Part shown: in pieces, positions 2,805 to 7,980 of the stretch | Position numbering within the stretch: position 1 is the stretch's first letter | Layout: each line of letters begins with the position of its first letter | Source of the DNA: Fidelibacterota bacterium | GTDB lineage: Bacteria; Fidelibacterota; Marinisomatia; Marinisomatales; TCS55 | Length of the DNA: 61,570 bases | Assembly (NCBI GenBank): GCA_030746535.1 | Contig: JASLML010000002.1 | Span: 1 to 61,570, forward strand | Direction of reading: 5' to 3' | Translations under genes and position numbers: made by a program | Notes under the pieces: generated by a model | The model's input: the letters and a program-made list of their open reading frames with translations, nothing else | The model's database searches: none | What the model was told of the DNA's origin: nothing

Positions 2805-4680
2805 AATTCTAGACTCTGTAAATGATCCTGCCGATCTGAGATCGCTTTCGAAAGAAGACATCAGTATTCTCAGCGCTGAGCTGAAGGATTATATCATCAA
2901 TGTTGTCGAGGAAAAAGGCGGACATTTTTCCTCTCCGCTCGGTGTAGTTGATTTGACCATTGCACTTCACAAAGTTTATGACACCCCTAAAGATCTCATT
3001 TTATGGGATGTAGGCCATCAGTGCTATGCACATAAAATTTTGACGGGAAGAAGGGATGAATTTCCGACATTGAGACAAAAAGACGGCATCAGCGGATTCT
3101 GTAGGCCGTCCGAAAGTGAATATGATGTATTAGGCGCCGGGCATGCAAGCACGTCCATTTCCGCCGCTCTCGGAATGGCGCAGGCACGAAATATAAAAGG
3201 TCAAGATCATCAGGTTGTTGCTATTATCGGCGACGGCGCCATGACAGGAGGGCTTGCCTTTGAGGCGCTGAATAATGTGACCCAGCTGGACGGACAATTC
3301 TTGATCGTGCTGAATGACAATCAAATGTCCATTTCCCAAACTGTTGGTGCGGTATCCCATTATTTAACGAAGGTTGTAACCAATCCACTTTACAACAGGA
3401 TCAAGGATCTTATTTGGAAAACGACGGAAATGCTGCCAGTTGGGAAAAAGACCGTTCAGCGGTTTCTGCATTCGTTTCAGGAAGGATTGAAGAGTTTTCT
3501 TGTCCCCGGAATGATTTTTGAAGAATTGGGCATCCAGTATATTGGTCCGATTGACGGTCATGATATGGATGAAATGATGGATACGTTTGCCAATTTGAAA
3601 GAACTGAAAAAACCCGCTGTCGTGCATGTACTTACGAAAAAAGGAAGCGGTCAGGATAAAGCGGAAGCCGATCCGCTGAAATATTATAGTACTTCCGGAA
3701 ACAATACATCACCGAATGGTCAAAAGAAAAGCAGTGTTCCGGGATACAGTTCAGTTTTTGGAACGATTGCTGTTGAGATGGCAGAGGCTGATAATAATGT
3801 TTGTGCTGTAGTAGCTGCCATGCGGGAAGGTACTGGATTGAAACCATATGCTGATAAGTTTCCCGACAGATTTTTTGATGTAGGCATTGCGGAAGGGCAC
3901 GCTGTTACATTTGCAACGGGACTTGCTGCAGCAGGACTGAAACCGATTGTTGCGTTATATTCCACATTTATCCAGCGAAGCTTTGACATGGTAGTCCATG
4001 ATGCAGCGCTGCAAAAACTTCCTGTCATCTTTGCATTGGACAGGGGAGGATTTGTTGGTCCGGATGGTCCAACGCACCACGGATCGCTGGATCTCGCATT
4101 TTTACGATGTATTCAAAATATCATCATCACTGCACCGAAGGACGGCAATGAATTGCGAAACCTGTTATTTACAGGGCTGAACCAGGAATCCACGCCGTTT
4201 GTCACGCGCTATCCTAAGGAAAGCGCTCACTCATTCGAAGAAGGGATCATACCGGAAATCCTTCCAGTCGGTTCCTGGGATGTTATCCAAGGTGGCTCTG
4301 ATGTTGCTGTATTGGCTATCGGACCAATGGTGCATACTGTTCAGGGAATATTGAAGAATCTGTCAAATAACGGAATTTCAGTAGAACTGGTTAACTGCCG
4401 TTTTATTAAACCAATGGATGAAGCATATCTTGAAGAAATGATGAACAGGTTTGATAGAATCATTACAATCGAAGACGGCGTTTTAAAAGGCGGCTTCGGC
4501 GAGGGTGTTGCCGCATGGCTTTCGGATAACGGATACGGAGGTAAAGTAATACGCCTTGGACATCCAGATGATTTCGTCGAGCATGGTACTCGAAGCGAAT
4601 TGCTGCAATTTTCTGGGCTCGATGAAAACAGCATAGCGAAGACAATTAATGATTTAGCCGAAGTTTCCAGCATCTATTAG
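2794..4680 (+). CDS. dxs: 1-deoxy-D-xylulose-5-phosphate synthase (Dxs)
   Basis: Dxs condenses pyruvate and glyceraldehyde 3-phosphate into DXP, the entry step of the MEP pathway. The 628-aa product has normal length. It shows the thiamine diphosphate motif GDGAMTGGLAFEALN, the N-terminal DVGHQCYAHKILTGR block, the transketolase-like FDVGIAEGHAVTFA in the middle domain, and a transketolase C domain. It is the last gene of the cluster and is followed by an intrinsic terminator. PdxST do not use DXP, so its presence here is best explained by isoprenoid synthesis together with ispH. Confidence 0.98.
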   Translation: MPYKILDSVNDPADLRSLSKEDISILSAELKDYIINVVEEKGGHFSSPLGVVDLTIALHKVYDTPKDLILWDVGHQCYAHKILTGRRDEFPTLRQKDGISGFCRPSESEYDVLGAGHASTSISAALGMAQARNIKGQDHQVVAIIGDGAMTGGLAFEALNNVTQLDGQFLIVLNDNQMSISQTVGAVSHYLTKVVTNPLYNRIKDLIWKTTEMLPVGKKTVQRFLHSFQEGLKSFLVPGMIFEELGIQYIGPIDGHDMDEMMDTFANLKELKKPAVVHVLTKKGSGQDKAEADPLKYYSTSGNNTSPNGQKKSSVPGYSSVFGTIAVEMAEADNNVCAVVAAMREGTGLKPYADKFPDRFFDVGIAEGHAVTFATGLAAAGLKPIVALYSTFIQRSFDMVVHDAALQKLPVIFALDRGGFVGPDGPTHHGSLDLAFLRCIQNIIITAPKDGNELRNLLFTGLNQESTPFVTRYPKESAHSFEEGIIPEILPVGSWDVIQGGSDVAVLAIGPMVHTVQGILKNLSNNGISVELVNCRFIKPMDEAYLEEMMNRFDRIITIEDGVLKGGFGEGVAAWLSDNGYGGKVIRLGHPDDFVEHGTRSELLQFSGLDENSIAKTINDLAEVSSIY

Positions 4681-4697
4681 ATTACAATCAGTACCAT

Positions 4698-4729
4698 CGT
4701 CCTGGCAAAACTAGGGCGCTTTCTTTTTT
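4698..4729 (+). terminator. Intrinsic terminator after dxs
   Basis: An 8-bp stem CGTCCTGG/CTAGGGCG with two G-T pairs and a five-base loop CAAAA is followed by a T-rich tract, TTTCTTTTTT. It lies 18 bases after the dxs stop and ends the nrnA-dxs transcript before the nuclease-like gene. Confidence 0.75.
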
Positions 4730-4774
4730 CATTGGCTAAGGGTTGATAAAATTTGCGAACACTATAAGTTTAGC

Positions 4775-5428
4775 ATGACATCTAAAAAAGTCCATCCCGA
4801 TTTTGTTTTGGTTTCTCTTTCGCTTGACGAGGTGCAGTCCGCAGTGCACCATGCCATGGATCGTACGAAGGAAATTGTACGGCAGTTCATACCAAAAAAA
4901 TCTGCGCTAAATCATTTGGAAACCAATTATATCGGCATGCTTGGCGAACTTGCCGTGAGAAACTGGGCAGGCATTGATGAAGAATTAATACAAGACTATA
5001 CCGATCACAAGCCTGATGAGGGCGATTTGGATTTGAATGGAAAAGTGTACGATATCAAAACAGAGGCAATCCCGGAAAAGTGGTTTCTTAAATTACAAAC
5101 AGGGGGTATTAGGAAATTTGATCCGTACGGGTGCCGTGTGTTTACGGAAAAGCATTACCATCATATCAAGAAATACTCAGGCGGTATCATTTTTTGTTCC
5201 CTGCCGGTAAAAGACGGTGAAACGGCTAAAGATGAAAAAATCAGGGAATCGCTTCTCCTTACGCGAGACATCATGATTACAGGCTTCATTTCACCGGAAG
5301 AAATCGGGATCAAAAATCCTACGTGGTACACACCTAAAAACCCAAAAGGCGGACGCAGAAAGTACAATTCAAAAAATTATATTTTTCACCATACCGATCT
5401 TACACCGGTGCGCCAGATCCTAAAGTGA
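4775..5428 (+). CDS. Putative PD-(D/E)xK endonuclease, candidate restriction enzyme
   Basis: I do not recognise a named family for this 217-aa protein. What can be seen is a core like the PD-(D/E)xK nuclease fold: E58 in GMLGELAV, then D84 in DEGDLD, then D93-x-K95 in VYDIKTE, with the right order and spacing for the metal-binding centre. The C-terminus is basic and aromatic (GGRRKYNSKNY). The gene ends nine bases inside the 3' end of a DNA methyltransferase gene on the other strand, so I infer it is the endonuclease of a type II restriction-modification system. An archaeal-type resolvase-like or repair nuclease is an alternative. The start is the first ATG after the dxs terminator; no clear Shine-Dalgarno is seen. 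Confidence 0.6.
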   Translation: MTSKKVHPDFVLVSLSLDEVQSAVHHAMDRTKEIVRQFIPKKSALNHLETNYIGMLGELAVRNWAGIDEELIQDYTDHKPDEGDLDLNGKVYDIKTEAIPEKWFLKLQTGGIRKFDPYGCRVFTEKHYHHIKKYSGGIIFCSLPVKDGETAKDEKIRESLLLTRDIMITGFISPEEIGIKNPTWYTPKNPKGGRRKYNSKNYIFHHTDLTPVRQILK

Positions 5429-6196
5429 ATCAATTCTCTTTTCCGCCATACGGATGAAATCCGCGTTCAGTTCATAACCCATATAATTTCTTTCAAGCTT
5501 TTTTGCTGCGACCGCTGTCGTCCCCGAACCCATAAACGGATCGAGAATAGTGTCTCCCGTAAAAGAAAACATGCGGATGAGCCGGTGCGGAAGTTCTTCC
5601 GGATACGGTGCTGGATGGGACCGGTCTTTTTCTGGCGGAAAGCGCCAAATGCTTCCAATATATTCACGCCAGTCTTCCTTATTAAGCCTGCTGGCTTCTT
5701 TGAGTTCTTTTTCAATTTTTTCGGGAGGTCCGTCCTTAACAAAAAGGTTAATGAATTCGATGGTATTCAATCCGTAAAAATTTGGAGGATACGGATACGA
5801 ACCCATCATCAGCTGATCGGTGCTGCCTTTATCCCAGATGATGAGATCATAACGAAAGAGTTCAGTTTCGGATAAAATGCTGGCTTCAATATCGTTATTG
5901 ATATTTTGGTAATCTCTGTTGTGATGTGTATGCATTACCGCTTTTTCCATGGGAAGGATTGGTGTATTGATGCACAGCTTTCCATTCGGTTTTAATACTC
6001 GGAAACATTCTTTCCAAACCGGTACCATGGAAGCGATATAATGTTCGTAGGACTCGCTCGATAAACCGATCTGTCCATCGGTTCCATAATCCTTTGCGTT
6101 AAAATACGGCGGGCTTGTTACAATGAGGCGGATGGAATCATCTGGAATCTCATCCATTTTTTCGCAGGATTTCTCAAATATAATGTTGGTTTCCAT
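5420..6196 (-). CDS. DNA methyltransferase, beta class (N4-cytosine or N6-adenine)
   Basis: This 258-aa protein has catalytic motif IV, TSPPYFN, near the N-terminus (about residue 27) and the SAM-binding motif I, DPFMGSGTTAVAAK, near the C-terminus (about residue 218). That order is typical of beta-class DNA methyltransferases. The SPPY form is commonest in N4-cytosine enzymes but also occurs in N6-adenine enzymes. The start is set at METNIIFEKS; the ORF track's 80 extra N-terminal residues run into the divergent mutase gene and look unlike the family. It is convergent and overlapping with the putative nuclease gene, which suggests a restriction-modification pair. Specificity cannot be read from the sequence. 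Confidence 0.88.
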   Translation of the reverse strand: METNIIFEKSCEKMDEIPDDSIRLIVTSPPYFNAKDYGTDGQIGLSSESYEHYIASMVPVWKECFRVLKPNGKLCINTPILPMEKAVMHTHHNRDYQNINNDIEASILSETELFRYDLIIWDKGSTDQLMMGSYPYPPNFYGLNTIEFINLFVKDGPPEKIEKELKEASRLNKEDWREYIGSIWRFPPEKDRSHPAPYPEELPHRLIRMFSFTGDTILDPFMGSGTTAVAAKKLERNYMGYELNADFIRMAEKRIDSL

Positions 6197-6263
6197 TGTA
6201 GGTAGTTTACAGAGTTTTACAGAAAAAATCTCCCCCGAAGTATCGTTTTCAAAACGGTCAAAA

Positions 6264-6292
6264 TTCACAGAAAATTTTACTAATTTTATAAT
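6264..6292 (+). promoter_or_regulatory. Sigma70-type promoter upstream of the acyl-CoA mutase gene
   Basis: TTCACA (6264-6269) and a perfect TATAAT (6287-6292) are separated by exactly 17 bases. Transcription would start near 6299, about 20 bases before the mutase ATG. It lies in the divergent gap between the methyltransferase and mutase genes and probably drives the long ccm-containing block. Confidence 0.6.
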
Positions 6293-6318
6293 CTCTATCA
6301 GCAGCCAATGATTATACA

Positions 6319-7980
6319 ATGACGAAGCAGTTAGATCTATTTGAGGAAGCAGAATCCCTTTGGAAGGATGAAGCAGATCAACCCTCTGCGCGTGAATATG
6401 ATTTTGACACGTTAAGTGGCGATCCGCTGGAAACACTGTATTATCCTTCAGACGGTAATCAAAACGGTTATCTCGAGAATCTTGGATTCCCAGGGCAATA
6501 TCCGTTTACGAGAGGAATCCATGCCAATATGTACCGAGGGAAACTTTGGACGATGCGGCAGTTTTCGGGCTTTGGAACTCCGAAAGAAACCAATGAGCGA
6601 TACCATTTTCTGATGAAAGAAGGGCAAATGGGACTTTCGGTGGCGTATGATATGCCGACGCTGATGGGCTACGATCCCGGCCATTCGTTTTCAGAAGGAG
6701 AAGTAGGGAAGTGCGGCGTCAGCGTTGCATCGCTGAAAGATATGGAAACACTGTTCAATGGAATTGACCTCGGCAAAATTTCTGTTTCCCAGACCATTAA
6801 CGGACCCGCAGTCATTTTGCTGGCTTTCTATATCGCGATCGCCGAAAAACAAGGTGTTCCGCTGGATCAGCTTCGCGGCACTATGCAAAATGATATTCTC
6901 AAGGAATTCATTGCCCAAAAAGAATGGATATTCCCGCCGGAAGCTTCCATGAGAGTAATCACAGACATGATGCGGTACTGCACGGAACATATGCCGAAAT
7001 TCAATACCATTTCCATTTCCGGTTACCACATTCGCGAAGCGGGATCTACGGCAGTGCAGGAATTAGCCTTTACGCTTGCCAACGGGTTCACCTACGTGGA
7101 ATACGCGATGAAAGCCGGGCTAGATGTGGACGGATTTGCTCCGCGGCTTTCTTTCTTTTTCAATTCGCATCTTGATTTCTTTGAAGAGATCGCAAAATTC
7201 CGGGCAGCCCGTCGAATTTGGGCGCGCCGTTTAAAGGAAAAATATGGAGCGAAAAATCCGCGATCCTGGAAATTGCGGTTCCACACGCAAACAGCCGGAT
7301 GTTCGCTCACGGCCCATCAGCCGGAAAACAATATTTCGAGGACTGCCTTCCAGGCCATGGCCGCGGTGCTCGGCGGAACCCAGTCGCTTCATACGAATTC
7401 CATGGATGAAACGCTTGCGCTCCCGACAAGAAAAGCAGCGGAAATTGCACTCAGAACGCAGCAGTTGATCGCATTCGAAACAGGAGTTGCGAATGTTGCC
7501 GACCCGCTTGGAGGATCGTGGTATATTGAGTCCCTTACAGACCGTATGGAAAAGGAAGCGGAAGCATATTTCAGGCAAATCGAAGATTTTGGAGGCGTAA
7601 TTCCGGCAATAGAGGAAGGATTCTTCCAGCGTGAGATTGCGCATGCCGCTTCGGACTACCAGAAAAAGGTGGACGAAAGATCACGAGTTGTGGTTGGCGT
7701 AAATAGATTCGAAAAAGAAAATGAGGAAATCGAAATTCCGATTCTGGAAATAGGCAATGCAGCGGAGGAAGAACAGGTCAAGGCACTTCATGATCTGCGG
7801 AGGGAACGAAATCAGGATGAAGTGGATGCAGCGCTTGCAGAAATTCGAGAAACCGCATCAGGGACGGGAAATATATTGCCGCCGATTCTGAAGGCCGCAA
7901 AAGCGTATGCTACGCTCGGTGAAATTGTGGATACCATGAAGCTGGAATTTGGCGAGTGGCAGGAATCAGCGGTGTTTTGA
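6319..7980 (+). CDS. Acyl-CoA mutase large subunit, isobutyryl-CoA-mutase-like, B12-dependent family
   Basis: The 553-aa protein is the substrate-binding barrel of a methylmalonyl-CoA mutase family enzyme, with no C-terminal cobalamin domain. In this architecture B12 is carried by a separate small subunit, which is not in the window. Family blocks are [39 protein letters not shown] and [14 protein letters not shown]. The position of the active-site Tyr of methylmalonyl-CoA mutase (RQYAGF) is Phe (RQFSGF), and the CoA-carboxylate-binding Arg (VRNTY) is Gln (AQKEW). This Phe/Gln pair is known from isobutyryl-CoA mutase, so methylmalonyl-CoA is a less likely substrate. The stop overlaps ccmE by one base. 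Confidence 0.85.

Follow-up and report, generated by a model that had tools for sequence, protein, structure and literature searches.

A probable mobile type II restriction-modification system with a candidate PD-(D/E)xK endonuclease of an undescribed family in Neomarinimicrobiota

A convergent gene pair between dxs and a mutase gene

The stretch of DNA analyzed here (the window; 61,570 nucleotides) carries two convergent genes with overlapping 3′ ends, R and M, which lie between dxs on the left and a methylmalonyl-CoA mutase gene that begins at 6319 on the right (Table 1). An earlier reading of the sequence alone had proposed a 217-aa open reading frame (ORF) and a methyltransferase gene on opposite strands with a 9-bp tail-to-tail overlap, and the coordinates bear this out. 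Because R and M overlap, no small ORF for a C protein can lie between them. The same reading placed a terminator before the pair and a divergent promoter after it. Such sequences are there: the hairpin is a stem of 8 pairs followed by CTTTCTTTTT, and the promoter-like sites read TTCACA-17-TATAAT on the + strand and CTGATA-16-TAAAAT on the − strand; terminator-like and promoter-like matches around R and M are, however, no more frequent than in shuffled sequence.

Table 1. Features of the R/M locus (window coordinates).
Feature	Position	Strand	Basis
Terminator-like hairpin 3′ of dxs, left edge of the R/M cassette	4698..4718	+	
R, candidate type II restriction endonuclease, 217 aa	4775..5428	+	ORF; methyltransferase linkage in every relative
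E58 of R, candidate catalytic glutamate preceding the PD-(D/E)xK core	4946..4948	+	invariant in 6 homologues
D84 of R, candidate catalytic aspartate, "PD" position	5024..5026	+	invariant in 6 homologues
D93-I94-K95 of R, candidate (D/E)xK	5051..5059	+	K95 invariant in 6 homologues
R/M tail-to-tail overlap, 9 bp	5420..5428	.	ORF coordinates
M, beta-class DNA methyltransferase, 258 aa, probably m4C	5420..6196	-	PF01555, 1.4e-45; PADLOC MTase_II PDLC03353, 1.3e-72
M motif I, DPFMGSGTT, aa 219-227	5516..5542	-	after motif IV (beta order)
M motif IV, TSPPY, aa 27-31	6104..6118	-	
Divergent promoter-like region between M and the mutase gene	6264..6301	.	consensus matches only

The convergent layout recurs in both other genomes of the window's genus, which comprises G000 (the genome that contains the window), G001 (L003, 15-bp overlap) and G002 (L007, 9-bp overlap), so that it is no peculiarity of a single genome. 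This locus is also present in the metagenome-assembled genome (MAG) record JAAZYX010000033.1, where R is 70% identical. Tail-to-tail overlaps are seen in other restriction-modification (R-M) systems too, of 12 bp in MthZI (9 bp in the window pair) and of 23 bp on a Helicobacter suis plasmid, and convergence is among the R-M architectures that have been described (PMC5333194).

M is a beta-class methyltransferase

The TSPPY and DPFMGSGTT motifs named in the sequence-only reading are both present in M, which matches PF01555 and has motif IV ahead of motif I, the arrangement that defines beta-class amino-methyltransferases. The SPPY form of motif IV and the m4C relatives of M suggest that its product is probably N4-methylcytosine (m4C). 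A search of G000 (85% completeness) for four methyltransferase families found no canonical DNA methyltransferase besides M; no protein of the m5C (PF00145), N6_Mtase (PF02384) or D12 (PF02086) families was found, and M is therefore the only recognized candidate for the source of methylation marks in this genome. A second PF01555 protein of G000 (L196 1480-2541, G000:C44; also L194 and L195), which occurs genus-wide in a housekeeping context, was left uncounted because its motif IV is degenerate (TKPPEYP, no PPY); it may be inactive or a non-DNA methyltransferase.

R has conserved candidate catalytic residues but no named family

That R belongs to no recognized family held up in the searches: Pfam, NCBIfam and PADLOC contained no match to R, PHROGs and, by sequence, the PDB none that was significant, and five members of its family searched against Pfam up to an E-value of 10 matched no family. 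PDB profile matches to eS19, a flavin-binding protein and large T antigen were rejected as chance (E ≥ 0.2). No relative of R was found in phage records, and none of R or of M in viral contigs. The R family is accordingly one that none of the databases searched names, as far as sequence comparison reaches; REBASE may contain an entry for it, unpublished or putative. Restriction endonucleases are so dissimilar to each other that annotation pipelines overlook them. A lack of matches like that of R is common for the type II enzymes, whose sequences have little in common outside groups of isoschizomers (PMC4081073).

E58, D84 and D93-I-K95 of R, which the sequence-only reading took for a PD-(D/E)xK nuclease center, are at the positions it named. 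From a single sequence such a motif is nearly worthless: the loose form of E...D...(D/E)xK occurs in 83% of shuffled copies of R and a stricter form in 3%, so that a nuclease call from R alone would be a near-guess. The motif is upheld, however, by comparison of six homologues (the three of the genus, that of G182, and two plasmid proteins with 22–25% identity). Across this alignment, in which the lowest identity is 22%, 22 positions are invariant, and the only charged residues among them, out of 73, are R30, E58, D81, D84 and K95; three residues that the sequence-only reading had picked before any comparison are among these five, for which the probability by chance is 1.6e-4. Position 93 is D in five of the six homologues and E in that of Psychrobacter, which is the exchange expected there, and the family as a whole keeps E, D and (D/E)xK in the PD-(D/E)xK order. 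These residues point to R as a candidate metal-dependent PD-(D/E)xK endonuclease.

A different role for R has to be weighed, in which R is another methyltransferase-linked protein (a regulator, a nickase or a second subunit) and M an orphan methyltransferase beside a gene of different function. AlphaFold models of R from one-sequence and two-sequence inputs were unusable (mean pLDDT 32 and 31), which leaves room for such a role; against it, the residues that are conserved are the candidate catalytic ones.

R is found only with M

Among 245 genomes of the phylum, R was found in five and M orthologues at least 73% identical in six, including all five with R. A sixth R match, in G049, proved to belong to DnaG and was not counted. 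M is linked close by in all five genomes with R, a count that overstates independence, since these genomes represent about three independent lineages, three of them being one genus. R adjoins M in G000, G001, G002 and G018, and one gene intervenes in G182, which belongs to another order. The two genes are thus separate and closely linked, and in the genomes scanned R never occurs without M, as in type II R-M systems. Homologues of R that are common without an adjacent methyltransferase, which the sequence-only reading had named as the finding that would speak against a pair, were not seen in the 245 genomes or in plasmid and phage records.

The gene between R and M in G182 encodes a UvrD-like helicase of 914 aa that has a PDDEXK_1 domain at its C terminus (L042, G182:C10, 3133-5877, − strand); it comes directly after R, the two overlapping by 4 bp (ATGA type), converges with M, and may serve this lineage as a third member of the system. 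An integrase-type transposase gene adjoins M in the same genome.

M occurs without R only in G023, where M is at the same locus and R is deleted. In G018, M is intact and R is frameshifted, for which MAG assembly error may account. The persistence of M in G023 would fit an orphan methyltransferase, but the pattern is one-sided, M sometimes lacking R and R never lacking M, and this is what a nuclease and the enzyme that protects against it should show; R has decayed or been lost only where M is intact, as would be natural for a toxic nuclease. Beside M in the three genomes of the genus, moreover, there is no restriction candidate other than R.

The pair was inserted and is under selection

The dxs-mutase gap measures 31 bp in G005, 39 bp in G012, 59 bp in G037 and 6 bp in G048, compared with 1.6 kb in the window and about 1.8 kb in many other relatives. 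Because many relatives have dxs and the mutase gene side by side, the R/M pair is a cassette inserted beside the mutase gene, and the earlier suggestion of an inserted cassette is sustained by this comparison. The junction (window 4677-6319) is variable, being empty, filled with about 1.8 kb of extra DNA or, in the window's genus, occupied by the R-M genes. A CstA-like gene is present there in G018 and G023; the order in G018 is dxs, CstA-like gene, R, M, mutase gene, and the extra gene is presumably a CstA-like transporter, a reading of its sequence rather than a profile match. M of the window is 73% identical to M of G182 and 74% to that of G018; G182 is the more distant relative, and the near-equal values suggest horizontal transfer.

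Within the genus R is intact in three species, with 59–70% identity, and its pN (0.18–0.27) is low relative to a saturated pS (0.74–0.79), which indicates purifying selection on R. R is less constrained than M (pN 0.09–0.12) and the flanking genes (0.06–0.09); in R-M pairs the endonuclease usually evolves faster than the methyltransferase. It is hard to reconcile this selection on an intact R with the pair being what remains, decaying or without function, of an earlier R-M insertion, a reading to which the frameshifted R of G018 and the lost R of G023 lend something and which we consider very unlikely.

Comparison with known systems

The only homologues of R detected outside the phylum are encoded on Acinetobacter and Psychrobacter plasmids (NZ_CP114603, NZ_MN657046). 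They carry the same candidate residues, and a profile comparison of the R family with these two proteins gave a probability of 95.4 and an E-value of 1.8e-8 over the catalytic region. Their setting differs from that in the window: their neighbors are an m5C and an Eco57I-type methyltransferase (fused in Psychrobacter), together with a protein matching PADLOC REase_II PDLC03488, so that restriction there may not depend on the R homologue alone. This different neighbor is a further point for assigning R some role other than that of restriction partner. Taken with the asymmetric occurrence and the conserved residues described above, such a role for R is improbable, and R is better read as the endonuclease of the pair. 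The PDLC03488 protein is annotated as hypothetical. The Psychrobacter and Acinetobacter clusters (L047 3234-8873; L008 3965-4476 with L009 1-3814) also include folE in Psychrobacter, and the Acinetobacter plasmid has a viperin gene; the Acinetobacter R homologue spans the record start and is absent from the gene table.

In MthZI of the Methanothermobacter plasmid pFZ1, as in the window, a beta-class methyltransferase (32% identical to M) and an endonuclease of about 200 aa are encoded tail to tail on opposite strands; M.MthZI is a CTAG m4C enzyme (PMC5867850). The MthZI endonuclease belongs to RE_MjaI (PF09568, 5.7e-64), whereas no similarity between it and R could be detected (BLASTP E 0.39, hhalign probability 0.3). 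Membership of R in RE_MjaI was rejected, as R has no profile match and G000, G001 and G002 have no MjaI match.

Systems of the MjaI family (CTAG) are fairly common in Neomarinimicrobiota (G003, G038, G048, G206, G207, G209, G216, G218, G219, G221 and G243; loci L052-L061 and L018-L032), and CTAG is depleted in four sampled carrier genomes. Their endonuclease-linked methyltransferases make up the large group closest to M within the phylum (about 41–46% identity over the shared region); they differ from the window in that most are longer (about 430 aa) and in that the endonuclease is of another family. Outside the phylum, the closest M found is that of Helicobacter suis pSNTW101c_1 (50% identity). 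R and the M genes converge there as in the window, but that system has two methyltransferases, and its R is an annotated endonuclease of 432 aa without a Pfam match.

Candidate recognition sites

Site avoidance was compared between four genomes that have an intact R and seven that do not, using 41–459 kb per genome. CCAGG/CCTGG (CCWGG) is the most depleted of the 512 5-mers in G000, G001 and G002 (observed/expected 0.58, 0.64 and 0.52; z −11.1, −6.2 and −8.4); its rank is 13th in G182 and between 27th and 204th across the seven genomes without intact R. GGCC and CTAG also separate genomes with R from three relatives without it, and both are depleted in MjaI-bearing genomes as well. In the latter, CTAG stands at 0.25–0.57 of expectation, which validates the avoidance method. 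Avoidance thus favors CCWGG as the leading candidate, among several sites that separate the genome groups and with few lineages compared.

CTAG is the alternative to which the homology of M points. R would then be an unrelated isoschizomer of MjaI, and the system would share the specificity of MjaI and MthZI; only the site is at issue, not the type of system. The next relatives of M in the phylum (41–46% identical, mostly 427–459 aa) adjoin MjaI-family endonucleases (PF09568) in 11 genomes, M.MthZI is likewise convergent with its own endonuclease gene, and CTAG observed/expected is 0.70–0.75 in genomes with R and 0.89–1.04 in those without. The depletion within the genus is nevertheless mild (15th to 22nd by z) next to that in MjaI-bearing genomes, and the closest plasmid relative of M, from H. 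suis, belongs to a system whose two methyltransferases suggest an asymmetric site, so that identity of about 45–50% does not fix specificity. CTAG specificity is accordingly doubtful. In our judgement, which was not computed, CCWGG has roughly an even chance, or slightly below that; CTAG and sites other than these three are both unlikely, to about the same degree, and GGCC is rather less likely again. The candidates nonetheless give concrete motifs for which long-read methylation data can be examined, beginning with CCWGG and going on to CTAG and GGCC.

In two MjaI-bearing genomes GGCC depletion is extreme or strong: 9 occurrences were seen in G209 against 417 expected (L177-L181), and G218 (L167-L171) is strongly depleted; this points to other strong restriction systems there.

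Proposed function of the pair

Every test run on the central claim of the sequence-only reading, that R and M are an R-M pair with an unrecognized nuclease family, inserted as a cassette, was favorable. The pair is very probably a mobile type II system whose endonuclease is a PD-(D/E)xK enzyme of an undescribed family. As a kind of system it is ordinary and well known. M would methylate a short palindromic site, probably at cytosine N4, and so protect the chromosome; R would cleave the same site when unmethylated, for example in incoming phage or plasmid DNA. Recognition of the R family would thereby supply a plausible phage-defense gene for uncultured Neomarinimicrobiota and a possible new enzyme.

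A more specific proposal is tentative, and we think it possible rather than probable: R would be the founder of a new sequence family of type II endonucleases, without sequence kin in solved structures or Pfam models, cutting CCWGG and partnered by an m4C methyltransferase, and its remote relatives would be auxiliary nucleases in the mixed m5C/m6A systems of Moraxellaceae plasmids.

As pure speculation, the 3′ overlap might allow antisense transcription to balance R and M, as the sequence-only reading imagined. Antisense RNAs have been reported for the EcoRI and Eco29kI systems, both of which have operon layouts (PMC3874152).
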